From a virus: DNA of 25,819 nucleotides. The position numbers and the translations under genes were made by a program. Numbering within the stretch: position 1 is the stretch's first letter; each line of letters opens with the position of its first letter. Below, piece after piece: positions 6,250 through 22,627 of this stretch. The stretch is taken from positions 1 to 25,819 of the IMG/VR virus record IMGVR_UViG_3300043411_000392, one strand, 5' to 3'. The notes under the pieces are model-generated. The model ran no database searches. It worked only from the letters and a program-made list of their open reading frames with translations, and was not told where the DNA came from.

Positions 6250-7038
6250 ATGGCATACGAGCAGACCGTATCGTCCGACAGCGTCGCCCAAGACCAGATC
6301 AAGGCCTTCGTGGATCGCATCCTGCGCCTTCGCGAAGAGGCGCAGGCGATCAAGGACGACATCAAGGAAATCTACGCCGAAGCCAAGGCCAACGGGTTCG
6401 ATAAGACCGTTCTCGGCAACGTCGTCCGCTATGTCGAAAAGACCGGCGAAGAGCTGGCCGCCGAACAGGAGCGCGATGCGTTGTTCGACCTGTACCTCGC
6501 GGCCTACACCGGCACTCCCTCGCGTACGCATGCGCATGCACGTGAGGGCAACCATACCGCCCCATCCCCCCAGGTTGTCCAGGCGGACCAAGGCAGCGAG
6601 GGCCCGTGGAGCTTGGCTCTCGCTGCCGGACAAATTCCCGAACCCGGCAACGGGCAGGCTGGTGAGAAGCCGGTCAGCGCGGGTGCGCAATCGACGGGGA
6701 ATGTGGATGGGAGTGCGGGCCGTTCGCACTCTAGGTCTCAGCTGTCCACAGAAAGCACGGCCAGCGTCCCCGTCGATACCCATTCCATCGCGAAGATCAA
6801 CGCAGGAGGCGAAGATGTAGACGCTGCGGCGGATAATGCCGGGGGTGGGGACTCGCTCCCGGCTGTCGCTTCCAACGTCCTCGTCATGCCGGCGCCGAAA
6901 CCCATTCGCCCATGGTGCCAGCACCTTGACGATCTGACGAAGTGCGGCGGCTACGGTCGGGTGCATTGCAGCTCCTGTCAGAAGCTGAAGGACGCGGGCG
7001 CCGTGGCCGTTCCGATCATCGGGAGCATTGGTCAATGA
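6250..7038 (+). CDS. GapR (DUF2312) family protein with long linker and Cys-rich tail
   Basis: Residues 10-86 match the GapR family: DQIKAFVDRILRLREEAQAI, then DIKEIYAEAKANGFD and VVRYVEKTGEEL. In Caulobacter, GapR is an about 89-residue nucleoid protein that binds AT-rich, overtwisted DNA ahead of replication and supports topoisomerases. This copy is about three times longer: a low-complexity, Gly/Ser/Ala-rich linker (about 88-215) is followed by a C-terminal segment with four cysteines and two histidines (WCQHLDDLTKC, VHCSSC; about 223-246), a candidate metal site. The gene overlaps the next one by four bases. Domain identification is confident; the role (aiding phage replication or disturbing host chromosome structure) is inference. 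Confidence 0.85.
   Translation: MAYEQTVSSDSVAQDQIKAFVDRILRLREEAQAIKDDIKEIYAEAKANGFDKTVLGNVVRYVEKTGEELAAEQERDALFDLYLAAYTGTPSRTHAHAREGNHTAPSPQVVQADQGSEGPWSLALAAGQIPEPGNGQAGEKPVSAGAQSTGNVDGSAGRSHSRSQLSTESTASVPVDTHSIAKINAGGEDVDAAADNAGGGDSLPAVASNVLVMPAPKPIRPWCQHLDDLTKCGGYGRVHCSSCQKLKDAGAVAVPIIGSIGQ
6521..6544. other. 24-base alternating pyrimidine-purine tract with a 12-base palindrome
   Basis: Every base from 6521 to 6544 alternates pyrimidine and purine, and 6528-6539 (GCATGCGCATGC) is its own reverse complement. Such tracts can adopt Z-DNA or cruciform forms under negative supercoiling. It lies in the linker of the GapR-like gene and encodes RTHAHAR. Confidence 0.75.
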
Positions 7039-7349
7039 GCGCATGGTGGAATCGAGCATCTGTAGAACAGCGCCTTGCGCAGATTGATGGCGGGATCGAG
7101 TGCGGGATGACCGCACGGCAAGTAGCACTGTGCAGCGGTTTCCCCGACAATAGGGCTGCCGGCATGCTTGTCGGCACCTACGCGAACAAGCACGGCCGGG
7201 CGTTTGCCCAGAGCATGGGCGGCAAGCACCGCAGGCGCTACGAGGTCGCGGACCTAAAGCGGTCTTACTGGCAGGGTGGGCGAGACTTTGCCGATGCGAC
7301 GACGCCGAGCGTCCGCGTGATGGATGCTGACTTCGATGAGGCAGCATGA
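7035..7349 (+). CDS. GcrA-like helix-turn-helix protein
   Basis: The start at 7035 overlaps the GapR-like stop as ATGA; an upstream start at 6942 would duplicate coding sequence of that gene. The 104-residue product has a segment (residues about 27-60) with GMTARQVALCSGF followed by NRAAGMLVGTYANKHGR. Spacing and key residues resemble the GcrA DNA-binding motif (G-S-A-x-Q-I-A then N-A-V-I-G-K-x-x-R-L-G). GcrA controls transcription of methylated cell-cycle promoters in Alphaproteobacteria. The resemblance is by eye and moderate; a generic HTH is the alternative. It ends -DEAA. Confidence 0.6.
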   Translation: MSAWWNRASVEQRLAQIDGGIECGMTARQVALCSGFPDNRAAGMLVGTYANKHGRAFAQSMGGKHRRRYEVADLKRSYWQGGRDFADATTPSVRVMDADFDEAA

Positions 7350-7714: not shown

Positions 7715-8515
7715 ATGGGGCAGAACGTGGAGGAGGTTGAATTCTATGTCGGTCTACATCAGCCGTCCGACGCTCATCGCTTTGGGCTCGCTTGCATCAG
7801 CATCAACCGGCTGCGCGGGCGGAAGAAGCCCATCGTCGGTTGCCGCGTCCTTGTCGATAGCGGGGCCTTCACCGAACTTCATATCCACGGGCAATATCGC
7901 CATGACGTTGAGGAGTATGCTCGGGAGCTTCACCGGCTTCATTCGGAGGGCGTTGTCCAGATCGCGGCGGCGGTAGCCCAAGACTATATGTGCGAGCCAT
8001 TCATGCTGGCGCGTACCGGGCTCAGCGTGGCCGACCACCAGCGCATGACCATAAGCCGCTATGACGCGCTGTTCGGCGCTCTCAATCGGCTGTTCGCCGG
8101 CAAGTGCCCGTTTCCCATCTTGCCGGTGCTGCAAGGCTACAAGCCAAGCGAATACGTCTCGCACCTTTTGGCCTATGGGCGCCGCCTAAAGCGCAACATG
8201 TGGGTTGGCGTCGGCTCGGTGTGTAAGCGCAACAGCGCACCTGAGAAGATCGCGGAAGTGCTGCAGGCCATATCTTCGATCCGTCCGGACCTTCGGCTGC
8301 ACGGGTTCGGCGTCAAGCTGACCGCTCTACTCAATGGGACCGTCCGCGAGCTGCTAACGACGGCCGATAGTATGGCCTGGTCGTTCGCAGCTCGGAAGCA
8401 GGGGCGCAACGCGAACTCGTGGGTCGAGGCGGAGAATTTTGTTCGGCGCATCGCTGCAACGAGCGTCCCACGCGTGGCTGTGCAGCCTGATCTATTTGAG
8501 AGGATCGCAGCATGA
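7715..8515 (+). CDS. dpdA: DpdA-like tRNA-guanine-transglycosylase homologue (deazapurine DNA modification family)
   Basis: From the ATG at 7715 the product has 266 residues and the organisation of phage DpdA-type proteins. These TGT-fold enzymes exchange guanine in DNA for a 7-deazaguanine such as preQ0, protecting the DNA from restriction. Visible landmarks are FYVGLHQPSD (11-20), VDSGAFTEL (47-55, TGT substrate-pocket Asp48), QDYMCEP (89-95), PVLQGYKPSEY (137-147), VGVGSVCKR (165-173), LHGFGVK (195-201) and ADSMAWS (217-223, candidate nucleophile Asp218). The usual C-terminal zinc cysteines of TGT are not seen. No preQ0 biosynthesis genes are in the window, so the base would have to come from the host or from genes outside. 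Start choice is uncertain: the frame is open to 7346. Confidence 0.82.
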   Translation: MGQNVEEVEFYVGLHQPSDAHRFGLACISINRLRGRKKPIVGCRVLVDSGAFTELHIHGQYRHDVEEYARELHRLHSEGVVQIAAAVAQDYMCEPFMLARTGLSVADHQRMTISRYDALFGALNRLFAGKCPFPILPVLQGYKPSEYVSHLLAYGRRLKRNMWVGVGSVCKRNSAPEKIAEVLQAISSIRPDLRLHGFGVKLTALLNGTVRELLTTADSMAWSFAARKQGRNANSWVEAENFVRRIAATSVPRVAVQPDLFERIAA

Positions 8516-8760
8516 ACTTCCCATTCCTCCCCAACCTCTTCCGCAAGCCCGACCCGCTCCCCCACGTCCTCATGGACGTACCCATGCGGTCCAGGGACGG
8601 GACATTCGCCCCCTCGCCAAAGACGATGGCACGGCAGAGCCGCTACGCTTCGGTGAAGACCCAGCTCGCGGTCTACATGGAGCGTACTCCTCACGAGCAG
8701 CGCAAGCGTGAAGCTGAGGCAGCCATAGCCCGTCTTCGCGAGACGGAGAGGGCGAGATGA
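8512..8760 (+). CDS. Hypothetical 82-residue protein between DpdA and helicase
   Basis: It overlaps the DpdA-like stop and the helicase start by four bases each, so it belongs to the same translational unit. The N-terminus is Pro/Phe-rich (MNFPFLPNLFRKPDPLPHVL), followed by a basic helical C-terminal half (RKREAEAAIARLRETERAR). No cysteine cluster or membrane helix is seen. No family recognised; it could be a small partner of either neighbour. Confidence 0.6.
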   Translation: MNFPFLPNLFRKPDPLPHVLMDVPMRSRDGTFAPSPKTMARQSRYASVKTQLAVYMERTPHEQRKREAEAAIARLRETERAR

Positions 8761-10151
8761 CCATGGACGCTTACGAAACATTCCTTGCGGGCAAGCGCAT
8801 CATGGACCCTGCGACCGGCCTTGCCTCAGTGCCAGACCTGCATGCCGACCTGTTCGACTTCCAGCGCGATATCACCGCGTGGGCATTGCGTCGGGGCCGG
8901 GCGGCTTTGTTCGCCGGCACGGGCCTGGGCAAGAGCCTCATGGAACTGTCATGGGCCGACGCCGTGCACAAGGCGACCGGCAAAGACATTCTGCACTTGG
9001 CGCCGCTCGCGGTGTCGGCGCAGTTGGCGCGCGAGGCGAGCAAGTTTCGCATCGGCGCCCGCATCGTCAAATTCGCCGCCGATGTTGAGCCCGGCATCAA
9101 TATCACGAATTACCAGAAGATCGAGCACTTCGACCTGTCGCAGTTTGGCGGCGTCATTCTTGATGAAAGCTCGATCCTCAAGAGCACCGACGGCCACTAT
9201 CGAACGAAGCTGATCGAGGCGTGTGCCGATATCCCGTTCCGGCTTGCCGCTACTGCTACGCCCGCGCCAAACGACTTCATGGAGCTTGGCAATCACGCCG
9301 AGTTCCTGGGCGTCATGTCCTACACCGACATGCTCGCGACGTTCTTTGTGCACGATGGCGGCGACACGCAGAAGTGGCGCCTCAAAGGCCATGCCGAGAC
9401 AGAGTTCTGGAAATGGCTGGCGTCCTGGGCGGTGATGATCCGCAAGCCGTCAGACCTTGGCTATGCCAATGACGGCTACGACCTTCCACCGCTGCACCAG
9501 GTGCAGCACCTTGTGGCGGCCGATTACGCGCCGTCGCTCGATACCGGGCTGCTGTTTCCCATGGAAGCGCGGACGATGAAGGAACGGCTTGCCGCCCGGC
9601 GCGATACTGTTGATGAGCGCGTGGCGCTTGCTGCATCAATGACGCCAGCAGATCGGCCGTTCGTCTGGTGGTGCAACCTCAACGCTGAAAGCGAGAAGAT
9701 CGCTGCAGCCATTGACGGCGCCGTTGAGGTGCGCGGTTCCGACGATGAGGCCGACAAAGAGCGCAAGCTGATCGATTTCAGCGAGGGGCGCATCCGCGTG
9801 CTGGTCACGAAGCCGTCGATTTGCGGTTTTGGCATGAACTGGCAGCACTGCGCCGACACCGGCTTTGTCGGGCTCAACGATAGCTTCGAGCAGGTTTATC
9901 AGTCGATCCGCCGCTTTTGGCGCTTCGGGCAGACGAAGCCCGTCACCGTGCATTTCATCGCCGCTGAGACGGAGGGCGCCGTGGTGGCGAACCTCCGCCG
10001 CAAGGAAGCCGACGCCGACCGCATGGCCGCGTCGATGGTGATGCACATGGCCGACCTGTCGCGGCGCGAAGTCGCCGGCACCGTCCGCACCATTCCCGAC
10101 TACAACCCGACGCAGCCGCTTGTGCTGCCGGATTTCCTGAGGGCATCATGA
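8757..10151 (+). CDS. SF2 (SNF2-like) DNA helicase/translocase
   Basis: The 464-residue protein has the superfamily 2 motifs in order: a Q-like FDFQRDIT at 33-40, Walker A GTGLGKS at 54-60, motif II DESS at 136-139 in place of DEAH, motif III TATPAPND at 166-173, and motif VI QSIRRFWRFGQ at 382-392. The RRFWRFGQ arginine-finger pattern is characteristic of SNF2-like ATPases. No nuclease or zinc domain is attached. It overlaps the DNA methyltransferase gene downstream by four bases (ATGA), an arrangement seen in other phages of this host group. Likely a double-stranded DNA translocase for replication, recombination or DNA modification; which of these is not decided by sequence. Confidence 0.88.
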   Translation: MTMDAYETFLAGKRIMDPATGLASVPDLHADLFDFQRDITAWALRRGRAALFAGTGLGKSLMELSWADAVHKATGKDILHLAPLAVSAQLAREASKFRIGARIVKFAADVEPGINITNYQKIEHFDLSQFGGVILDESSILKSTDGHYRTKLIEACADIPFRLAATATPAPNDFMELGNHAEFLGVMSYTDMLATFFVHDGGDTQKWRLKGHAETEFWKWLASWAVMIRKPSDLGYANDGYDLPPLHQVQHLVAADYAPSLDTGLLFPMEARTMKERLAARRDTVDERVALAASMTPADRPFVWWCNLNAESEKIAAAIDGAVEVRGSDDEADKERKLIDFSEGRIRVLVTKPSICGFGMNWQHCADTGFVGLNDSFEQVYQSIRRFWRFGQTKPVTVHFIAAETEGAVVANLRRKEADADRMAASMVMHMADLSRREVAGTVRTIPDYNPTQPLVLPDFLRAS

Positions 10152-11143
10152 CCGATATCAAGGCCGTCGATCAGGTGGTGACACCTGAGTATGCGATCTA
10201 CCAGGGCGACTCCTGCGAGCTTATCCGAGCCATCCCAAGCGAGAGCATCGACTTCGGCGTTCACTCGCCGCCGTTCGAGGGGCTCTATCGCTTTTCCAAC
10301 TTCGACCGGGACATTTCCAACAATGACGGGCCTCAGTTTTGGGAGCACTACGCCTTCCTGATTTCGGAAATGCTGCGCGTCACGAAGCCGGGCCGGCTGC
10401 ACTCGGTGCACTGCATGCAACTGCCTATGAGCAAAATCCGCCACGGCAATATCGGCATGCGGGATTTCCGCGGCGAAGTCGTGCGGGCCTATGAGGACGC
10501 AGGCTGGATATTTCACTCCGAGGTCTGCATCTGGAAAGACCCTGTAGTCGCCCAGCAGCGCACGAAGTCGATCCGCCTGCTGCATGCCCAGATCCTCAAG
10601 GATAGCTCGATCAGCGGGCAGGGGCTTGCCGATTACATCCTGACCTTTCGCAAGCCGGGCGAGAACGCCGCGCCAATCGACGGGCCGTTTCAGCAGTTCA
10701 TCGGCACCGGCACCGATATCAGCCGCGAGGCATATGATCGCGAGTGCGCCGCGTTCGCCAGCGATGGCCGGGAGCCGTGGCCGTTCGACAAATGGAAGTC
10801 TATCCTTGTGTGGCAGCGCTACGCGTCGCCGGTGTGGATGGATATCAACCAGACCCGCACGCTGCAGTATCGCAACGCTCGCGACGAAAAGGACGAGGTC
10901 CATATCTCGCCCCTGCAACTCGACGTGATCGAGCGGTGCATCGACCTGTGGTCGCTTCCCGGTGAGACCGTTCTGACGCCGTTCCTCGGCATCGGCAGCG
11001 AGGTCTATTGCGCCGTCGAAATGGGCCGCAAGGGGATCGGGTTTGAACTCAAGCCGTCCTACTTCGCCCAGGCTGTCAGGAACATCGAGGGGCTTCACAA
11101 GGCGCGTACCGACAGCATGTTCACGCCCAACGAGGCATCCTAG
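10148..11143 (+). CDS. Beta-class DNA (amino) methyltransferase
   Basis: The 331-residue protein has the permuted beta-class order: catalytic motif IV SPPF at residues 40-43 comes first and the AdoMet motif I FLGIGSE (279-285) followed by GFELKPSYF (298-306) comes last. The enzyme methylates the exocyclic amino group of adenine or cytosine. SPPF rather than DPPY is closer to the N4-cytosine variants, but that is not decisive. The recognition sequence cannot be read from the protein. No cognate restriction nuclease is next to it, so it is an orphan methyltransferase coupled to the helicase. Self-protection or gene regulation are both possible. Confidence 0.88.
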   Translation: MTDIKAVDQVVTPEYAIYQGDSCELIRAIPSESIDFGVHSPPFEGLYRFSNFDRDISNNDGPQFWEHYAFLISEMLRVTKPGRLHSVHCMQLPMSKIRHGNIGMRDFRGEVVRAYEDAGWIFHSEVCIWKDPVVAQQRTKSIRLLHAQILKDSSISGQGLADYILTFRKPGENAAPIDGPFQQFIGTGTDISREAYDRECAAFASDGREPWPFDKWKSILVWQRYASPVWMDINQTRTLQYRNARDEKDEVHISPLQLDVIERCIDLWSLPGETVLTPFLGIGSEVYCAVEMGRKGIGFELKPSYFAQAVRNIEGLHKARTDSMFTPNEAS

Positions 11144-11145
11144 CC

Positions 11146-11535
11146 ATGCTCGATACCAAAGCCATACAGGGGACAGAGGTGAGGTTGGCGCTGCCGTGGC
11201 CCGACCGCAAGCTGTCGCCAAATGCCAGGTGCCATTGGGCGGTCAAGGCCAAGGCCGTGAAGGCTGCGCGCGAGGGGGCTTACTTCCTCGCATTGCAAGC
11301 TCGCATCCGCCGCATGGACGTGGGCAGCACCGGCCCGATTGCCGTCAAGTTCGAGTTCTGCCCGCCGAACAATCGCAGGCGGGACCGTGACAACTGCATC
11401 TCCTCGATGAAGGCGGCGACCGATGGGATCGCTGATGCCCTTGGGGTGGACGATAGCAGGTTCGTTTCAACCTACAGCATGGGTCAGCACATCAAGGATG
11501 GCGCTGTTCTCGTAACCATTGGGAGGTCTGCATGA
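11146..11535 (+). CDS. rusA: RusA-family Holliday junction resolvase
   Basis: The 129-residue product has the RusA signature: residues 76-83 NRRRDRDN with acidic residues Asp80 and Asp82, followed by DALGVDDSRF with the third metal ligand at Asp102 or Asp103. In E. coli RusA the equivalent residues are Asp70, Asp72 and Asp91. It cuts four-way junctions made by phage recombination and can clear branched DNA before packaging. It complements the ERF/exonuclease pair on the other operon. The length fits the family (about 120). Confidence 0.9.
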   Translation: MLDTKAIQGTEVRLALPWPDRKLSPNARCHWAVKAKAVKAAREGAYFLALQARIRRMDVGSTGPIAVKFEFCPPNNRRRDRDNCISSMKAATDGIADALGVDDSRFVSTYSMGQHIKDGAVLVTIGRSA

Positions 11536-11879
11536 CCGAAGAACAGGACCGCGCCGCTCGCAATCTTCTGCGGCCGGACAACCACGATCTGTTCGATGAA
11601 GTGGGCTTGCGGCTGAACGCCCGCAACCCTTCGATCCCGATTGATACGATTGCCGCCGACATAGGCGTCACGGTCGATGCGCTTTGCCGGTGGGTGATCG
11701 GCTTCAAGGAAAAGGGCGCCCGCCGTTCTGTTCCGCAGTCCAGGGACTTTGCGCCTGTGCGCCCAAGCCAGGGCCACGGCGGCAGCATGTGGTCGGATGA
11801 TGAAGACCGGCGCCGCCAGCGGATCATTCAGAAGGCCAGAGACGGCGCCAGAGCCACGCGGAAGGCGTTGGGCGGGTGA
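11532..11879 (+). CDS. Putative helix-turn-helix protein
   Basis: The 115-residue product starts in an ATGA overlap with RusA. Residues about 34-60 (PIDTIAADIGVTVDALCRWV) read as a helix-turn-helix, followed by a basic segment (KEKGARR). The C-terminal third is Arg/Ala-rich (RRRQRIIQKARDGARATRKA) and would bind DNA non-specifically. No named family. Its place next to the DUF1376 gene suggests a role in replication control, by position only. Confidence 0.6.
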   Translation: MTEEQDRAARNLLRPDNHDLFDEVGLRLNARNPSIPIDTIAADIGVTVDALCRWVIGFKEKGARRSVPQSRDFAPVRPSQGHGGSMWSDDEDRRRQRIIQKARDGARATRKALGG

Positions 11880-12469
11880 GCGAGCGCCCCTTCATGCAGC
11901 TCTACGTCTCCGACTTCGTCGGCGACACCCTACGCCTTAGCGCTGAGCTTGTGGGCGCTTACATGCTGCTCCTGATGGCAATGTGGAATGGCGATGGCGA
12001 GCTTCTGGACGATGAAGCCGAGCTGGCGCTTGTGGCTCGCATCCAGGCTGATCGGTGGCCTGCGGTGTGGGCAAAACTGGCGCCGTTTTTCGACATCGCC
12101 GATGGCAAAGTTACCCATGGGCGCATCAAGTTGGAGCTGCAGAAATTTGCTAGGAAGTCGGCAGCCAGAAAAGAGGCCGGAAGCCGTGGCGGGAAAGCTA
12201 AGGCATTGAAAGATAAGAACACTGGTCTAGCAATTGCTACACCAAATGCCATGGCATCTTCCAGAAACCATATAAAGAAAGGCGCGCAAGCGCTTTTGGA
12301 CCCGACTGATAAGACCGAGGATGTGTCTCGCCATGTCGAGCCAGACGTCTTCGCCGAGTGCGTTCGACGCACCGAGCCTGTCAAAGCCTTCATCGAGCAC
12401 AAGCAGTTTCCCGCCGCCCTCGTCGCTGAGGTGCGAGCACAGATCAAATCGCAGGAGAGTGTGCATTGA
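11876..12469 (+). CDS. DUF1376/YdaU-type putative replication initiator
   Basis: Translation starts at a GTG overlapping the previous stop as GTGA. Residues 5-95 match the DUF1376 domain: FMQLYVSDFVGDTLRLSAEL, GAYMLLLMAMW and a winged-helix-like C-terminal part (ALVARIQADRWPAVWAKLAP). This domain is found at the N-terminus of phage replication proteins (YdaU family). The rest is a Lys/Ala-rich linker and a helical tail, with no DnaC-like ATPase. It is the best candidate for an origin-binding protein here, since no primase or polymerase is seen. Confidence 0.75.
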   Translation: MSERPFMQLYVSDFVGDTLRLSAELVGAYMLLLMAMWNGDGELLDDEAELALVARIQADRWPAVWAKLAPFFDIADGKVTHGRIKLELQKFARKSAARKEAGSRGGKAKALKDKNTGLAIATPNAMASSRNHIKKGAQALLDPTDKTEDVSRHVEPDVFAECVRRTEPVKAFIEHKQFPAALVAEVRAQIKSQESVH

Positions 12470-12945
12470 GCGGCAAAGACCATTGGGATGCCATCCTCGC
12501 ATCGGCGCCACTCAACGCCACTGCTGGCGCGGTGACGGGCAAGGGATATGGCTTCAAGCCTGCGGCTCTGCGCCCAGAGCACACATGGTTGGCCCCGCCG
12601 CCAATGAAGCGCGACCTTGCAAGGTTAGCACTTGATCCGAACTTTCGGGACTACACAGGCTTGAAAAGTGGCCGCCTTACCGTGCTCGGGATGGCCGAGG
12701 ACAATGCTGACCAAACAGGCAATAAGGGCGCCCTATGGGTGTGCCGCTGCGCGTGCGGGAAGTACGTCGGGCGACGCGGCAAGGGGCTGAGGACCGGTAA
12801 GACAACGGCCTGCAACGAGTGCAACTACACCGATCATTTGCGCTGGAGCGCTTCGAGTGGCCAGGCTCGCAAAAGAGCCGAGGCGCCTGAGGCAAGGAAG
12901 TGGCTGACACCAGAGGAACAGGCTGCAAAGAAGGACGCCGCATGA
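12466..12945 (+). CDS. CxC zinc-ribbon phage protein (second copy)
   Basis: The gene starts at a TTG in a TTGA overlap. The 159-residue protein contains DYTGLKSGRLTVLG (about 64-77), then CRCACG and CNEC, the same zinc-ribbon family as the leftward gene at 1061-1540. Members are common in phages as putative DNA-binding proteins. The two copies share only the ribbon layout, not long identity. The basic, Gln/Ala-rich C-terminus ends -KKDAA. Confidence 0.7.
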   Translation: MSGKDHWDAILASAPLNATAGAVTGKGYGFKPAALRPEHTWLAPPPMKRDLARLALDPNFRDYTGLKSGRLTVLGMAEDNADQTGNKGALWVCRCACGKYVGRRGKGLRTGKTTACNECNYTDHLRWSASSGQARKRAEAPEARKWLTPEEQAAKKDAA

Positions 12946-13415
12946 ACTCCCCCCTCACCTACAAGCGTCCGACCGAGGAGACGAAACCTATGCGCGTGAT
13001 CTTCGATCTCGATGGCACCCTGTCCAATGCCGAGCATCGCGTCCATTACCTGACGGGCGAGATCAAGGACTGGCGCGCGTTTTATGCCGAGTGCGCGGGC
13101 GATCAGCCGATTAGGCCAATCATGGATGTGCTGACAGCGCTGGGCCTCATGGGTGCGGAAATCCATATCTGGACGGGCCGCTCCGCTGAAGTCGAGGCCG
13201 AGACCGTGGCGTGGCTCGAAGCGAACGATTTGGACGACATCGCCCTGAAGATGCGTCCGGTTGGCGATCACAGCCCGGACACTGAGCTGAAGGCCAAGTG
13301 GCTGGCGGAGTGCGGCTGGACGCCTGATCTGGTGTTCGAGGATCGCGCCTCGGTGGTCGAGATGTGGCGCTCTCACGGCATTATATGCGCCCAAGTCGCG
13401 CCGGGCAATTTCTGA
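12942..13415 (+). CDS. PNKP-type HAD phosphatase
   Basis: The start is the ATG at 12942 in an ATGA overlap. The 157-residue product is a HAD hydrolase: FDLDGT (nucleophile Asp22, acid Asp24), WTGR at 77-80, conserved lysines near 117-119 and FEDR at 132-135. The C-terminal pattern VVEMWRSHGI followed by QVAPGNF closely resembles the phosphatase half of T4 polynucleotide kinase-phosphatase. It lacks any kinase domain. The likely reaction is removal of 3'-phosphates from nucleic acid ends or nucleotides, which would make ends usable for ligation or polymerisation during recombination. Confidence 0.82.
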   Translation: MNSPLTYKRPTEETKPMRVIFDLDGTLSNAEHRVHYLTGEIKDWRAFYAECAGDQPIRPIMDVLTALGLMGAEIHIWTGRSAEVEAETVAWLEANDLDDIALKMRPVGDHSPDTELKAKWLAECGWTPDLVFEDRASVVEMWRSHGIICAQVAPGNF

Positions 13416-14915: not shown

Positions 14916-15388
14916 TGGCAGCGCCGGTAGGTAATCAGTTCTGGCTGCAGCGCAGTTCGCACGGCCGCAACCCAATTTTTGCAGGCCCAGACGAACTGTG
15001 GGAAGCATGCTGCGAGTATTTTGACTGGGTTGAGAAGAACCCGCTCAAGGAAGCGCAGGCCTTCGCGTATCAGGGTGACGTGAAGCTACAGGAGCTTCCG
15101 AAGATGCGAGCCATGACAGTAACGGGGCTCTGTATCTTCCTCGATATTGCCCGGAGCACGTGGGACGCGTGGCGGGAGACCGATGACTTTTCGGGCATCA
15201 CAACGCGGGTAGACGAAATTATCCGCACGCAAAAGTTTGAGGGCGCGTCCGCAGGGCTGCTGAACCCGGGCATCATCGCCCGAGATTTGGGGTTGGCTGA
15301 GAAGTCGGAACAAACCGGACGGCTAGACCACGTCCACGAAATCAGGCGCACCATTGTCCGGCCGCACGCTTCAGATACCAACGGCTGA
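14915..15388 (+). CDS. Small terminase subunit, P22 gp3 type
   Basis: From the ATG at 14915 the product has 157 residues (P22 gp3 has 162) and reads as the gp3 packaging family: GNQFWLQRSSHGRNPIFAGP near the N-terminus, ACCEYFDWVEKNP, MRAMTVTGLCIFLDI, and IIRTQKFEGASAGLLNP then IIARDLGLAEKSE. It recognises the packaging start and hands DNA to the large subunit, implying headful packaging. A longer in-frame start at 14471 was rejected because the extra residues cross the terminator. It overlaps the large subunit by 35 bases. Confidence 0.9.
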   Translation: MAAPVGNQFWLQRSSHGRNPIFAGPDELWEACCEYFDWVEKNPLKEAQAFAYQGDVKLQELPKMRAMTVTGLCIFLDIARSTWDAWRETDDFSGITTRVDEIIRTQKFEGASAGLLNPGIIARDLGLAEKSEQTGRLDHVHEIRRTIVRPHASDTNG

Positions 15389-16661
15389 GGTCTTCCTGCC
15401 GCTGCTTGAGCCAGCGCGCGACAAAGGAGCATGGGGCGGGCGAGGGTCAGGGAAGTCGCATTTCTTTGCCGGCCTGTTGATCGAAGACAGCCTGGCAAAT
15501 AAGGGGCTGCTCAGCGCGTGCATCCGCGAGGTGCAGAAGTCCCTCAAGGATTCAGCCAAGCGCCTCATAGAAGCCAAGCTGGCCGAGCACGGCTTGGGCG
15601 AGGCAGACGGCTTCAAGGTCTTTCGCGAGATCATCGAAACGCCGGGCGACGGCGCAATCATCTTCCAAGGTATGCAGGACCATACCGCGGAGTCGATCAA
15701 GTCGCTCGAGGGTTTTAAGCGGGCATGGGCAGAGGAAGCCCAGACGCTCAGCGCGCGATCGATAGGGTTGCTTCGCCCTACCATTCGCGCCGAAGGCTCG
15801 GAACTGTGGTGGAGCTGGAACCCACGCCGCAAGAATGATCCGGTCGATGTTTCGCTGCGAGGAACCACTAAGCCGACAGGCGCAATCGTGGTCCGGGCCA
15901 ACTGGTCGGACAATCCGTGGTTTCCAAGCGTGCTCGAGCAGGAGCGGCTGGACTGCCTCAGGAACCAGGCAGAGCAATATGACCACATCTGGGAAGGCGG
16001 TTACGCCACCGTGCTAGAGGGTGCCTACTACGCGCAGCCGATAGCCGAGGCGAGGGCGCAGAAGCGCATTGGCAGGGTCTCTGCAGACCCGCTGCTGACG
16101 ATCAAGCTGGTGTGTGACATCGGCGGCACCGGGGCCAAGGCCGACGCCTTCGCAATGGTTGCCGAGCAGTGGGTCGGCCGCGAAATCCGCGTGCTCAATT
16201 ACTACGAGTCGGTGGGGCAGCCGCTTGCGGCTCATCTCAACTGGATGCGCGCCAACGGCTACACGCCCGACAGGGTGCAGATCATCCTGCCGCACGACGG
16301 CAGCTCGCACGACAAGGTCTACGACGTTTCCTACGAGAGCGCGTTCCGCGATGCTGGGTACGACGTTGTCGTGATCCCGAACCAAGGCAAGGGCGCGGCA
16401 ATGCTCAGGGTGGAGAGCGCCAGGCGCCTGTTCCCGAGCATGTGGTTCAACGAAGCGACCACGGCGGCGTTGCTCGATGCGTTGGGCTGGTATCACGAAA
16501 AGCGCGACACAGAGCGCAACATTGGCCTTGGGCCGGAACACGACTGGTCATCGAACGGCGCCGACGCTTTCGGGCTGGGCTGTGTCGCTTACGAAGAACC
16601 GCAAGAGAAGCGCAAGGCGAAGGCACGCTCCTACAGCGGGGCAATGGGCTGGGCAGGGTGA
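15354..16661 (+). CDS. Large terminase subunit (packaging ATPase/nuclease)
   Basis: The 435-residue protein starts at a TTG inside the small-subunit gene; no later start would keep the N-terminal ATPase. Walker A is GGRGSGKS at 28-35 and Walker B AWAEEAQ at 124-130, with the coupling segment at SWNPRRK near 154-160. The C-terminal nuclease domain has candidate metal ligands Asp255 (CDIGG), Asp315 (LPHDGS) and Asp404 (GADAF). This fits Terminase_3-family large subunits. It drives DNA into the prohead and cuts it when the head is full. Confidence 0.93.
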   Translation: MSGRTLQIPTAEVFLPLLEPARDKGAWGGRGSGKSHFFAGLLIEDSLANKGLLSACIREVQKSLKDSAKRLIEAKLAEHGLGEADGFKVFREIIETPGDGAIIFQGMQDHTAESIKSLEGFKRAWAEEAQTLSARSIGLLRPTIRAEGSELWWSWNPRRKNDPVDVSLRGTTKPTGAIVVRANWSDNPWFPSVLEQERLDCLRNQAEQYDHIWEGGYATVLEGAYYAQPIAEARAQKRIGRVSADPLLTIKLVCDIGGTGAKADAFAMVAEQWVGREIRVLNYYESVGQPLAAHLNWMRANGYTPDRVQIILPHDGSSHDKVYDVSYESAFRDAGYDVVVIPNQGKGAAMLRVESARRLFPSMWFNEATTAALLDALGWYHEKRDTERNIGLGPEHDWSSNGADAFGLGCVAYEEPQEKRKAKARSYSGAMGWAG

Positions 16662-16664
16662 TCG

Positions 16665-18716
16665 ATGGCTGACGACGACGATCTCAAGCGCGGCAAGGAC
16701 CTGTTCTCCACAGCAGAGGACGCCGAGTCCGACAACCGCTCTGCCTATGAGGACGACATCCGGTTTGCCCGCCATGAGGAACAGTGGCCGGCTGACATTC
16801 GCAAGCAGCGCGAGCTTGACGGACGGCCCTGCCTGACCATCTCGAAGCTCAACGCGTTCTCTCGCCAGGTCGTCAACGACGCCCGCCAGAACAAGCCATC
16901 GATCAAGGTGCACCCGGCCGACAGTGGCGCCGATCCCGAGACGGCCGACGTGATGAACGGGCTGATCCGCAACATCGAATACACGTCAAACGCTGACGTG
17001 GCCTATGACACGGCTGTCGACTGCGCCGTCAACGGTGGTTGGGGCTATATTCGCGTCGGGCTCGACTACAGCTACCACGACAGCTTTGACATGGATCTCA
17101 GCATCCAGCGCGTTGCCAATCCGCTGTCGGTCTATGGCGACCCCAATTCGACACAGGCCGACTCATCGGACTGGATGAATGCCTTTGTCGTTGACCGGCT
17201 CAGCAAGGACCAGTTCGCCGCAAAATACGGCAAAGACGAAGACGGCAAGCCCACCAAGACTGTCGTTGATTGGGACGACTCGAGCTGGTGGGACGAGGCG
17301 TGGCGCGAAGGCGAAGACGCCATGGTGGCCGAGTGGTGGAACCGCGAGGAGATCGAGGTCAAGGTCGCGCAGTTCCGCAATCTGCAGGACGGCTCCGTCG
17401 TCACCTATGCGACCAGCGACATCGAGAAATCTCCCGATATCCAGGCCTTCATCGAGGCGGGACTGCTCGAGTTCACGCGGGAGCGCACCGGCAAGACGTG
17501 CAAGGTAATTCAGCGCATCATGACTGGCGCCGAAGTGCTCAAGACCAACGATTGGGTGGGCACCTATATTCCGATCATCCCGGTCTATGGGGATGAGTAC
17601 AACATCAAGGGCAAGCGCTATTTCCGCTCGCTGGTCCACTCGGCCAAGGACGCACAGCGGCAGTTCAACTACTGGCGATCGACGGCTACCGAACTGGTCG
17701 CATTGGCGCCGCGCGTGCCGTGGATCGGCCCGGAAGGCACGTTTGATGTCGACCCGAACTGGCAGACGGCAAACCGGATCAGCCATCCCTATCTTGAATA
17801 CAGCAACAAGGCCCAGCCGCCCCAGCGCATCCCGCTCGACAGCGGCCCTGCTGCCGGCGCATTGCAGGAAGCGTTGAACGCCTCCGACGACATGAAGGCG
17901 GTGATCGGGCTCTACGATGCGTCGCTCGGTGCGCGGTCCAACGAGACCAGCGGCAGAGCCATCATGGCCCGCCAGCGTGAAGGCGATGTGTCGACGTTCC
18001 ACTTCATAGACAACATGGCCCGTGCCATTCGCCACACGGGCCGCATTCTGATCGACCTTATCCCGCATGTTTATACTGGCGAGCGTGTGATCCGCGTCAT
18101 GGGCGAGGACGGCAAGCCGTCGAACGTGCCGATTGGTAAGGAATACCCGAAGGTTGACGAAAAGACCGGCCAGCCGATGGCAGGCCCGGACGGCAACCCG
18201 ATCATGGCGATGCACGACTTCAGCGCCGGCAAGTACGACCTTACCGTCACCACCGGCCCGAGCTTCACGACCCGCCGCGAGGAAGCGGCTTATTCGATGA
18301 CCGAAGCACTCAGGGCATTCCCTGCCGGTGCGCCTGTCATCGTGCCGGAACTGGCCAAAAATCTTGATTGGCCAGGCGCCGATAAGATTGCCGAAAAGCT
18401 CGAGGCGCAGATGGGCGGCCAGGTGCCACCCGAAATGCAGAAGATGATTGAGGAAGGCAAGCAGACCATCGCAGCCCAGGGCGAGGAAATCGCCCAGCTG
18501 AAGGGCGACCGCGCGATGGACGAAGCCGCACTGCAGCAGAAGGCCCGCGAGGCCGAGATGCAGGCGATGGCCGACATGCGGATTGCTGAAATCCAGATCG
18601 CATCGGACGAGCGCATTGCTGAGATGAAGATCGCAAGCGAGGCCCGTATTGCCGCCTACAAAGCCAGGCTGCAGGCCGACGCCGCAGCGGCACGTCCGCA
18701 GCCTCAGGCTGCATAG
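16665..18716 (+). CDS. Portal protein, P22 gp1 type
   Basis: The 683-residue protein is the dodecameric portal. Family features are the acidic N-terminus, FARHEEQWPADIRKQRELDG (about 28-47), CLTISKLNAFSRQVVND, and a conserved YVGDE-like region here read as IPIIPVYGDEYNIKGK. The last about 120 residues form a long, repetitive helix (IAEIQIASDERIAEMKIASE), equivalent to the barrel of P22 gp1. P22 gp1 has 725 residues. The gene begins just after the large terminase and ends nine bases before a small gene. Confidence 0.93.
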   Translation: MADDDDLKRGKDLFSTAEDAESDNRSAYEDDIRFARHEEQWPADIRKQRELDGRPCLTISKLNAFSRQVVNDARQNKPSIKVHPADSGADPETADVMNGLIRNIEYTSNADVAYDTAVDCAVNGGWGYIRVGLDYSYHDSFDMDLSIQRVANPLSVYGDPNSTQADSSDWMNAFVVDRLSKDQFAAKYGKDEDGKPTKTVVDWDDSSWWDEAWREGEDAMVAEWWNREEIEVKVAQFRNLQDGSVVTYATSDIEKSPDIQAFIEAGLLEFTRERTGKTCKVIQRIMTGAEVLKTNDWVGTYIPIIPVYGDEYNIKGKRYFRSLVHSAKDAQRQFNYWRSTATELVALAPRVPWIGPEGTFDVDPNWQTANRISHPYLEYSNKAQPPQRIPLDSGPAAGALQEALNASDDMKAVIGLYDASLGARSNETSGRAIMARQREGDVSTFHFIDNMARAIRHTGRILIDLIPHVYTGERVIRVMGEDGKPSNVPIGKEYPKVDEKTGQPMAGPDGNPIMAMHDFSAGKYDLTVTTGPSFTTRREEAAYSMTEALRAFPAGAPVIVPELAKNLDWPGADKIAEKLEAQMGGQVPPEMQKMIEEGKQTIAAQGEEIAQLKGDRAMDEAALQQKAREAEMQAMADMRIAEIQIASDERIAEMKIASEARIAAYKARLQADAAAARPQPQAA

Positions 18717-19963: not shown

Positions 19964-21226
19964 ATGAGCAACACTACGCTTACCGCGGATATCATCGCCA
20001 AAGAGGCGGTGGCTATCCTCGAGAACCAGACCGTGATGGGCAAGCTCGTCTATCGCGGCTACGAGTCCGAGTTCGACAACAACGTCAACGGCTACAAAGT
20101 CGGTGAGACCGTGTCGATCCGCCGCCCCACTGACTTCACTGTTCGCGACGGCAAGGTTGCCGCGAACCAGGATGTCGTGGAAGGCAAGCTGCCCGTCACC
20201 GTCGACAAGCAGAAGGGCGTCGATTTCAAGTTCTCCAGCCAGGACCTCACCCTCCAGATTGGCGAACTGTCGGACCGCGTCGTTCGTCCCGCCATGGTGC
20301 AGCTGGCCGAACAGGTCGACCGCGACCTGATGGCGCTCTACAAGGAGGTGCCGAACCACGTCACCATCCCGTCGGGCGGCATCAACTCGTTTGCCGACTT
20401 CGCCCTTGCAGCGGAACGCATGGATACGATCGGCGTCCCGCAGGCCGACCGTAGCGCCGTCCTCACCCCGTCCGACTATTGGGCGATGCTGGGCTCGCAG
20501 ACCGCGCTCTACATCAACGGGCCGGCCAACGGCGCCTATCGCCAGGGCTCGCTGGGCATGATCGGTGGCATCGACACCTACATGTCGCAGAACGTCCCGC
20601 TGCACACGACCGGCGCCCGTACCGGCACCGACGTGAGCGATACCACGGGCACCAGCTACGACGCCGGCTACACCTGGGCGACGGTGAAGGATTCGACCTC
20701 GGTCACCTTCCACATCGACGGCATGGCCTCCGATACGGCTGGTTACTACAAGAAGGGCGACACCTTCACGCTGTCGACCGTCTATGACGTGAACCCCGTT
20801 TCCAAGGAACGGCTGGCTCACCTCAAGGTGTTCACGGTGATGTCGGACACGACCTCGGCCTCCAACGAAGCCGATGTGTCCATCTGGCCGCCCATCATCC
20901 TGTCGGGTGCGCAGAAGACGGCGGAACTCTCGACTGGCTCGGCGCTCGACGGTCTGACCGTCACCTACCAGGGCGTCGCGTCGACCGGCTATCGCCAGAA
21001 CCTGTTCTTCCACAAGAACGCCTTCGCCCTCACGATGGTCCCGATGGTCAAGCCGCCGGGCGCCGTGGACGTTGGCCGCCGCACCTACAAGGGTGTGAGC
21101 GTCCGCGTGATCCCGTACTACGACGGCACGAACGACGACAGCAATTGGCGTCTGGACGTGCTGTACGGCTGCACCACCGTCGATCCCCGCCTTGCCGTGC
21201 GCGCCTCTTTGGCGGCCGACATCTAA
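19964..21226 (+). CDS. Major coat protein, P22 gp5 family
   Basis: The 420-residue protein (P22 gp5 has 430) has the HK97-fold P22 coat signature near the N-terminus: EAVAILENQTVMGKLVYRGY (about 12-31) and GETVSIRRPTDFTVRDG (about 47-63), then GVDFKFSSQDLTLQI and a C-terminal VRVIPYYDG with RLDVLYGCTTVDPRLAVR. It is the most strongly codon-optimised gene in the window by eye. It forms the icosahedral shell with the scaffold encoded just upstream. Confidence 0.93.
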   Translation: MSNTTLTADIIAKEAVAILENQTVMGKLVYRGYESEFDNNVNGYKVGETVSIRRPTDFTVRDGKVAANQDVVEGKLPVTVDKQKGVDFKFSSQDLTLQIGELSDRVVRPAMVQLAEQVDRDLMALYKEVPNHVTIPSGGINSFADFALAAERMDTIGVPQADRSAVLTPSDYWAMLGSQTALYINGPANGAYRQGSLGMIGGIDTYMSQNVPLHTTGARTGTDVSDTTGTSYDAGYTWATVKDSTSVTFHIDGMASDTAGYYKKGDTFTLSTVYDVNPVSKERLAHLKVFTVMSDTTSASNEADVSIWPPIILSGAQKTAELSTGSALDGLTVTYQGVASTGYRQNLFFHKNAFALTMVPMVKPPGAVDVGRRTYKGVSVRVIPYYDGTNDDSNWRLDVLYGCTTVDPRLAVRASLAADI

Positions 21227-21247: not shown

Positions 21248-21466
21248 ATGGCACTCAAGGAACTCTCGGATGGCGGCCCGGACGGCACTCGTCTCGGCCA
21301 GGCATCCACCGACAAGCTCGGCTTCTTCGGCCTCACGACGCCGATTGTTCGCCGCACCTGCACGCTCGCTGCGGCCCTCACCGCAGGCACGACCACGCCG
21401 GCCAATATCGCCGCTGCGGTCGATGAGCTGCACGCCGCCTTGGCCGCATACGGGCTCATCGCCTGA
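21248..21466 (+). CDS. Small head-fibre-like virion protein
   Basis: The 72-residue product begins LSDGGPDGTRLGQASTDKLG, a pattern found in phage head-fibre/decoration proteins (GT-LGQS-TDKIGFYG). It is followed by an Ala/Thr-rich region and a short helical end. The gene lies directly after the coat gene, where decoration proteins sit. AGAAAGGAAAA precedes the ATG. Confidence 0.65.
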   Translation: MALKELSDGGPDGTRLGQASTDKLGFFGLTTPIVRRTCTLAAALTAGTTTPANIAAAVDELHAALAAYGLIA

Positions 21467-22107
21467 TGCTGGTCTGTGTAGGCATCCCGACGATTGACGG
21501 GAAGCCCTGCACCAACCTCGTGGACTCCCTGCTGGCCGAGCAGTTTCTCGGGTTCCAGCAGGGGGTTCACTTTCTCATTCAGTGGGAAGTCGGGTGCTCC
21601 TTGATCGGAGTGGCCCGCAACAAACTGGCCCGGCGCTTTCTCGATACGCGCGGCGCCGATGCCATGGTGTTTGTGGACTCCGATATCAGTTGGAAGGGCG
21701 GCGATCTTATCCGCCTCGTGAAGCGTCCTGAGGACGTGATCGGCGCCACGTACCGGGCCAAGCGCGACGACGACTACTACCACTTTCGCGGAACGCCGCA
21801 AAAGGTGGGCGATCTCTACAAGGTCGACGGGCTGCCCGGCGGCTTCATCAAGATCACCCGCAATGCTTTCAACCGCATCCCGGCCAATCGGTACAAGGAC
21901 ATGGATGGACGGGAGGGGATCGACTATTTCCCCACGGGCTTCCACGACGGCATCATCTGGGGCGAGGATTACGGCTTCTGCCGCCAATGGCGCGAGACCG
22001 GCGGGGACGTGTGGCTGGATCCCGCGATCCACCTGCGCCACCACGATGGACTGAAATTCTACACTGGCGACCCGACGCCATGGCTCGAGGATGCAGCGCA
22101 TGGCTGA
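21466..22107 (+). CDS. Glycosyltransferase (GT-A fold)
   Basis: The 213-residue protein has a GT-A Rossmann-like start (VCVGIPTIDGK, 3-13), a metal-binding DSD motif at 71-73 in MVFVDSDISW, and a GED at 166-168 followed by FCRQWRETGGDVWLDPAIHLRHHD, a typical catalytic and C-terminal pattern of phage glycosyltransferases. It starts in a TGATG overlap with the head-fibre-like gene and overlaps a methyltransferase. The sugar and acceptor are unknown. Its place amid virion genes suggests modification of a virion protein or of a host surface glycan, but DNA glycosylation cannot be excluded. Confidence 0.82.
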   Translation: MLVCVGIPTIDGKPCTNLVDSLLAEQFLGFQQGVHFLIQWEVGCSLIGVARNKLARRFLDTRGADAMVFVDSDISWKGGDLIRLVKRPEDVIGATYRAKRDDDYYHFRGTPQKVGDLYKVDGLPGGFIKITRNAFNRIPANRYKDMDGREGIDYFPTGFHDGIIWGEDYGFCRQWRETGGDVWLDPAIHLRHHDGLKFYTGDPTPWLEDAAHG

Positions 22108-22627
22108 ATTGCTTTTGGGCGCGGGCGCGCGACACAAAAAGCTCCTGTCGTGGAATGACCGCGATGAATGGACCAAGCTCACAACGCTGGACATCAACCC
22201 CGACCACAAGCCGGATGTTGTCTGGGACTTGAACGACCCCGAACTCCCGTTCGATGACAATTCCTTCGATGAAATTCACGCCTATGAGGTGCTCGAGCAC
22301 GTCGGCAAGCAGGGCGACTGGCGCTTCTTCTTCGCGCAGTGGTCTGACTTCTGGCGCGTCCTTAAGCCTGGTGGCGTGTTCATCGGCACATCGCCGGCCT
22401 ATCGGTCGGCATGGGCATGGGGCGACCCCGGCCACACGCGCATCGTACAGGAAGAGAACTTCGTGTTTCTCCATCAGCCGTCTTACACGGGGCAGGTGGG
22501 GAAAAGCCCCATGACCGACTATCGCTTCGTCTACGAGGCGGATTTCGAGCCCAAGGCGCTGCATACGGGCGTCGATACCTTCCAGTACGTTCTCGAGGCC
22601 ATCAAGCCGTCCCGGATCACGAGGTAA
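22100..22627 (+). CDS. Class I SAM-dependent methyltransferase
   Basis: The start at 22100 has a GAGG ribosome-binding site nine bases upstream and overlaps the glycosyltransferase by eight bases; an ATG at 22091 is possible but lacks one. The 175-residue product has a glycine-rich LLLGAGARHKK at 4-14, a motif II acidic LDINPD, and IHAYEVLEHVG around residues 59-69, with the post-motif VLKPGGVFIGTSP. The substrate is unknown. Pairing with the glycosyltransferase suggests methylation of a sugar or glycosylated product. Confidence 0.82.
   Translation: MAELLLGAGARHKKLLSWNDRDEWTKLTTLDINPDHKPDVVWDLNDPELPFDDNSFDEIHAYEVLEHVGKQGDWRFFFAQWSDFWRVLKPGGVFIGTSPAYRSAWAWGDPGHTRIVQEENFVFLHQPSYTGQVGKSPMTDYRFVYEADFEPKALHTGVDTFQYVLEAIKPSRITR

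Follow-up and report, generated by a model that had tools for sequence, protein, structure and literature searches.

A compact DpdA-like enzyme without C-terminal zinc cysteines in a P22-like phage record, and the linkage of VUT-family transporter genes to dpdA among its relatives

The survey of Hutinet et al. (2019; PMC6884629) reports that CAjan requires dpdA for its 7-deazaguanine, places 76 phages that carry dpdA without preQ0 genes in its group 3, calls the modification status of such dpdA-only phages difficult to predict, and lists three Podoviridae among all the phages counted. According to the same source, the DNA of mycobacteriophage Orion was unmodified, its host having no preQ0 genes, 7-11 was slightly modified, and Mycobacterium, the host genus of the mycobacteriophage enzymes considered below, is reported to be without preQ0 genes. 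MED16, which has dpdA alone, contains dADG at ~0.13% of G, and most of the restriction enzymes tried still cut its DNA, dADG notwithstanding (PMC8306585). GrwAB is reported to target phages with 7-deazaguanine, and escapers carry DpdA mutations (PMC12137116). YhhQ, cited in PMC11888242 as the preQ0 transporter of E. coli and given there as present in ~9% of bacterial dpd islands, is described by Hutinet et al. (PMC6884629) as present in some phages, uncorrelated with their group. CAjan encodes a preQ0 pathway of its own, and a gene annotated as a putative preQ0 transporter stands some genes away from its dpdA.

The gene described here was found in a linear virus record, 25,819 bases long and taken in full (hereafter the window; GC 62%, no tRNA genes). 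It lies at 7715..8515 on the plus strand and encodes a compact protein of 266 aa, with no internal stops. The same frame is open in the 5' direction as far as an ATG at 7346, which would give a 389-aa form; because the Pfam match to the 266-aa form starts at its ninth residue and the ORFs of several relatives start near there, 7715 is the likely start. The initial annotation had recognized a DpdA-like enzyme by its TGT/DpdA landmarks, and all six of them (VDSGAF, QDYMCEP, PVLQG, GSVC, LHGFGVK, and ADSMAW) are present. Profile searches bear this out, with matches far above chance to Pfam DpdA (PF23859, E 3.9e-42) and phrog_1279 (E 2.5e-78), and the identification is sound at the superfamily and Pfam levels. 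Neither Pfam TGT nor the NCBIfam models at E 1 matched the protein, and a sequence search of solved structures returned chance matches to viral proteases (E 0.85 or worse). The gene is under purifying selection, pN/pS being 0.27-0.37 in all six comparisons, at dS values near or past saturation.

An AlphaFold2 model built from 68 sequences (mean pLDDT 93.5) predicts a TGT/DpdA-type barrel, which places the protein in this superfamily. The best Foldseek match in the PDB was 7ui4, a DNA preQ0 insertase DpdA (E 2.7e-8), and the best match among viral proteins was a mycobacteriophage queuine tRNA-ribosyltransferase (E 1.7e-21). In VIA-align, 7ui4 (Z 18.4, rmsd 3.3, 231 residues) was tied with tRNA TGTs (Z 18-20, highest 19.7), so that the fold cannot separate a DNA from a tRNA substrate. 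D48, D90, Q140, H196, G199, and D218 are invariant in the 68-row alignment; across a broader collection of 245 sequences, including frame-shifted and partial copies, the DSGAF-type motif occurs in 238, the HGFG-type in 241, the DSMAW-type in 219, and the DYxCEP-type in 178. In a profile comparison with CAjan and MED16 DpdA, D48 falls on the Asp in the CAjan motif DSGAF, H196 on LHAFGIT, and D218 on CDSSSW. Following TGT enzymology, we take D218 to be the nucleophile and D48 its partner, and the putative active site of the window enzyme (Asp48, Asp218, and His196) appears intact.

The PF23859 profile matches all three of Larva, Shandong1, and Phrappuccino (3/3), and it finds no match in CAjan, 9g, 7-11, nt-1, and Dp-1 (0/5) or in the Rosebush relatives Ares and Hedgerow, MED16, and Vid5 (0/4). 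Judged by these nine records, the window enzyme falls outside the sequence family of the phage DpdA types with measured 7-deazaguanine and shares a weak profile link with them: a comparison of the window family with CAjan and MED16 together reached a probability of 76% (E 2.4e-5), that with CAjan alone 41%, that with bacterial DpdA 50% (DSGAF and PVLQG aligned, with drift beyond them), and those with MED16 alone and with TGT essentially nil. Among bacterial DpdA proteins, one gives a weak match to the profile of the compact family (3.6e-4). CAjan DpdA (phrog_887) has the DSGAF, HxFG, and DSxxW motifs and lacks CxC..C, as does the window enzyme, but belongs to a separate sequence family. MED16 DpdA, also phrog_887, resembles the window gene in standing without preQ0 genes in its record, although its sequence family differs. 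The DpdA of bacterial Dpd islands (7ui4) has the same fold as the window model; in contrast, it has a CxCxxC motif and a DpdB partner, and the PADLOC DpdA models give no match to the window protein.

The closest described enzymes are those of the PF23859/phrog_1279 type itself. The mycobacteriophage members (Larva, Shandong1, and Phrappuccino) are ~40% identical to the window enzyme and have the active-site motifs in common with it, whereas most of those examined carry a C-terminal Cys cluster that the window branch lacks. We take Orion, in subcluster B1, to be of this type and the one assayed example known to us; phage Chah, presumably also of subcluster B1, matches PF23859. In Phrappuccino (L148 1-1732), a DarB-like antirestriction annotation stands a few genes from dpdA. 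Closer still is the protein annotated as queuine tRNA-ribosyltransferase in Sinorhizobium phage phiLM21, which is 68% identical to the window enzyme and stands in an early region of similar layout. phiLM21, for which an integrase and a repressor are annotated, differs in having other structural genes and a VUT gene that overlaps the end of dpdA, while the window is P22-like and without VUT. We found in the literature no PF23859 member with a detected product. The description of dpdA without preQ0 genes as a little explored state was overstated, given the 76 phages of Hutinet group 3 and the dADG of MED16 (PMC6884629; PMC8306585).

The C-terminal zinc cysteines had been reported missing from the window protein, and we confirm this for it and for its branch. 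With the motif scored as C-x2-5-C-x2-4-C within 70 aa after DSMAW, no Cys cluster was found among the 135 loci of L001-L136, and the full set of 245 sequences contains 48 with one; these 48, some of them duplicates, all belong to the mycobacteriophage- or actinobacteria-seeded sets. The zinc site of tRNA TGTs (CxCxxC...H) is likewise absent from the window protein C-terminus. Bacterial DpdA keeps CxCxxC, and CAjan DpdA lacks the CxC..C motif; since the latter is essential for modification, the absence of these cysteines weighs little and does not argue against DpdA activity.

The other genes of the window point to a P22-like phage of the podovirus type, encoding on the plus strand a terminase large subunit (15354..16661; 3.2e-22), a P22-like portal (16665..18716; 2.5e-188), and a P22-like coat protein (19964..21226; 1.3e-53). 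Further Pfam matches include a gp3-type small terminase, YqaJ, and ERF. Among the ten best matches listed, coat relatives are at most 34% and portal relatives at most 50% identical, and they come from varied hosts. A CI-like repressor (4212..5195, minus strand), with weak matches to Peptidase_S24 (0.0058) and HTH_31 (0.0071), both below cut-off, suggests that the phage is probably temperate; the small divergent ORF facing it (5271..5507, plus strand; no Pfam match) can be called Cro-like from its position alone, by analogy with phiLM21. The earlier wording "temperate podovirus-like" is thus well based in its second part, by portal and coat, and reasonable in its first. No lysis or integration gene was seen among the window ORFs scanned, so part of the phage genome is probably missing. 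QueC is absent from the record, and 33 other window ORFs compared with Pfam gave no match to preQ0-pathway families at the E-value limits used. The reported lack of preQ0 genes accordingly stands for the window but, as the 25.8-kb record is possibly a fragment, need not hold for the phage.

The following genes around dpdA are on the plus strand. Upstream lies a GapR-like DNA-binding protein (6250..7038; Pfam 6.4e-18), and 13 of 115 loci have a member of its cluster in the vicinity of dpdA; a small ORF matching no known family (8512..8760) overlaps the dpdA stop. There follow an SNF2/DEAD-like helicase (8757..10151; phrog_62 1.9e-60, phrog_16 4.1e-37), an N6/N4 DNA methyltransferase (10148..11143; Pfam 2.1e-17), a RusA-like resolvase (11146..11535; phrog_34 2.5e-22), and a DUF1376 protein (11876..12469; 2.1e-15). 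The helicase and methyltransferase (8757-11143) resemble a fused helicase-methylase divided over two genes, and their cluster has longer members (e.g., L091 2771-5668). Elsewhere in the window, positions 12900-13415 encode a HAD phosphatase domain of the PNKP type (3.8e-22), and the stretch 21466-22627, between the coat and the tail-side genes, holds a SAM methyltransferase and an ORF without a Pfam match that on visual inspection resembles a glycosyltransferase.

By tblastn, matches were found in 399 of 50,697 phage records, mycobacteriophages making up 390 of these, and in 71 plasmid records. Motif-based scans gave 25, 42, 80, and 80 partly overlapping loci, the last two sets being the best 80 of 226 and the best 80 of 572 confirmed relatives. 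The nearest tree neighbor of the window enzyme is that of locus L071 (77% over 233 columns, 99% SH-aLRT). A conserved neighborhood was considered as a strong signal for the window branch and set aside, the commonest cluster near dpdA, that of DUF1376, occurring in 14 of 115 non-redundant loci. Within 5 kb of dpdA, 26 of the 115 loci (raw count) have a member of one of four methyltransferase or helicase-methyltransferase clusters. Clusters resembling PAPS reductase occur within the same distance in eight (L027, L037, L055, L059, L061, L081, L105, and L124), an example from one such cluster scoring just under the Pfam cut-off, and a PAPS-reductase-like gene is annotated beside dpdA on a Shinella plasmid (L154). 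The dpdA copies of L024, L025, and L028 are frame-shifted toward the C-terminus, and an attL is annotated inside dpdA of Rhizobium phage RHph_TM3_3_3 (L027 20162-20176).

In some relatives, dpdA is adjoined by a gene of the VUT family (PF02592). All six candidates in one Pfam check scored above the cut-off, and that of L046 scored 27.0 against a cut-off of 27.2. On Nocardia and Embleya plasmids, a gene bearing the annotation VUT, queuosine salvage, stops 8 nt and 20 nt upstream of dpdA, respectively. Over all loci, the 35 VUT genes (three of them duplicates) lie on the dpdA strand without exception, at gaps of at most 460 nt; 30 of the 35 are within 60 nt of dpdA, where 2000 random placements gave 0.58 on average and never more than 5. 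VUT stands upstream in some loci and downstream in others. Counted by 90% clusters, it occurs in 4/71 of the viral window-branch set, 3/35 of the genomes, 23/64 of the viral actinobacteria-seeded set, and 3/9 of the phage and plasmid regions, so that linkage in the window's own branch is a minority condition, and there is no VUT gene in the window. None was seen near dpdA in Streptomycetaceae (0/27 loci, 0/20 clusters; loci of 3-4 kb where length is given). Its presence requires at least 22 state changes (raw count) on a quick 125-row tree in which half of the inner branches are poorly supported and VUT-bearing loci were favored as cluster representatives. Among 50 whole phage and viral records of relatives, a VUT match anywhere was found in two, both adjoining dpdA, and QueC in none. 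On actinobacterial plasmids, VUT-dpdA pairs lie at L152 3408-5281 and L153 3288-4744, and the Nocardia DpdA is 421 aa long, with an extra C-terminal HTH-like stretch. The tight VUT-dpdA linkage in relatives is a new observation: in the open-licence literature, as far as its accessible text goes, we found no publication on a direct pairing of VUT with PF23859 dpdA.

QueC was the preQ0-pathway gene searched for in hosts and relatives. At E<1e-20 it is present in 29 of the 39 genomes in which a relative occurs, one copy having an internal stop; seven of the remaining ten have a VUT match, and in the last three the QueC match is split (G014) or weak and partial (G020 and G039). Because QueC (12/14) and VUT (9/14) are also common in 14 control reference genomes, host supply is permissive rather than distinctive. 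Bacterial DpdA (PADLOC, E<1e-100) occurs in seven of the 39 carriers (G002, G003, G015, G017, G019, G021, and G033; loci L278-L284), with DpdB present in both of the Dpd-island genomes checked; the island and the compact dpdA lie on different contigs in all seven. The island dpdA has QueC within a few kb in six of the seven, and VUT in two. With carriers assigned to genus and order from record titles, bacterial DpdA was found, for the genus of G015, in 5 of 144 genomes, three of them carriers (3/5 vs 2/139, Fisher p 2e-4, counting G016 and G034 as members of the 144), and in the order of G003 in 3 of 397, one of them a carrier (2/11 vs 2/396, p 0.004). These comparisons are post hoc, involve small numbers and related genomes, and concern Dpd as the single defense system compared; as carriers were identified by a scan limited to motifs, some may have gone unrecognized in the background. 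At most, the counts suggest that encounters of compact-dpdA elements with Dpd systems are more frequent than would be expected.

From the homology to TGT/DpdA and the genomic context, we infer that the window protein is probably a compact DpdA-type DNA transglycosylase that swaps guanine in DNA for a host-made or imported 7-deazaguanine. By analogy with TGT/DpdA enzymes, one Asp, probably Asp218, would attack C1' of deoxyguanosine in phage DNA and guanine would leave, its place being taken by a 7-deazaguanine (preQ0 or a relative) that Asp48/Asp90 would help to hold. The host queuosine pathway would supply the base, or else, in some relatives, it might enter by the transporter encoded beside dpdA, and the resulting guanine mark on phage DNA might help against restriction. 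The enzyme kind has already been described, and the host-preQ0 interpretation is plausible and was largely anticipated in print. MED16, with dADG and dpdA alone, offers a precedent from another sequence family and supports, for that family, the idea of a phage dpdA that draws on host preQ0. That MED16 DNA is cut by most enzymes and that GrwAB targets such phages argue against a simple protective purpose.

Against the 7-deazaguanine reading stand the unmodified DNA of Orion and the 390 of 399 phage matches that fall to a host genus reported to have no preQ0 genes. Base exchange on DNA with a base not derived from preQ0 would explain why the enzyme is conserved in mycobacteriophages of such a host, and the family members there keep the catalytic motifs; Orion, which we assume to be of the PF23859 type, is without known 7-deazaguanines (PMC6884629), and the eight loci with PAPS-reductase-like clusters can be read in the same direction. 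However, the adjoining transporter is of the VUT family, annotated for queuosine salvage, which points to 7-deazaguanines, and mycobacterial hosts in nature could be unlike M. smegmatis. We regard a base of other origin as unlikely. A tRNA substrate, with the protein acting as a phage TGT that changes host tRNA queuosine during infection, is also unlikely. The model is as near to tRNA TGTs as to 7ui4, but Pfam TGT goes unmatched, all 135 loci lack the zinc-type Cys cluster, each of eight cellular genomes searched has its own full TGT, and the neighbors of dpdA include DNA methyltransferases and helicases. An inactive relic, which the three frame-shifted copies might suggest, is very improbable for the window enzyme, whose gene is intact, invariant at the key residues, and under purifying selection.

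Returning to the DNA transglycosylase reading, we offer tentatively, and with considerable doubt, the extension that the zinc-less compact branch may act as a portable salvage-and-mark device: a 7-deazaguanine borrowed from the host, which would make or import it, and in some relatives supplied with a linked VUT, would give mobile DNA the "self" mark of Dpd islands and so counter Dpd restriction rather than ordinary restriction enzymes.

The family spans 399 phage records, and its best-known members infect a genus reported to be without preQ0 genes. With QueC in 29 of the 39 genomes that carry window-branch relatives, the function of the family may be approachable in workable phages such as phiLM21, and two concrete hypotheses follow, one from the transporter linkage and one from the seemingly raised frequency of Dpd islands in carrier genomes.
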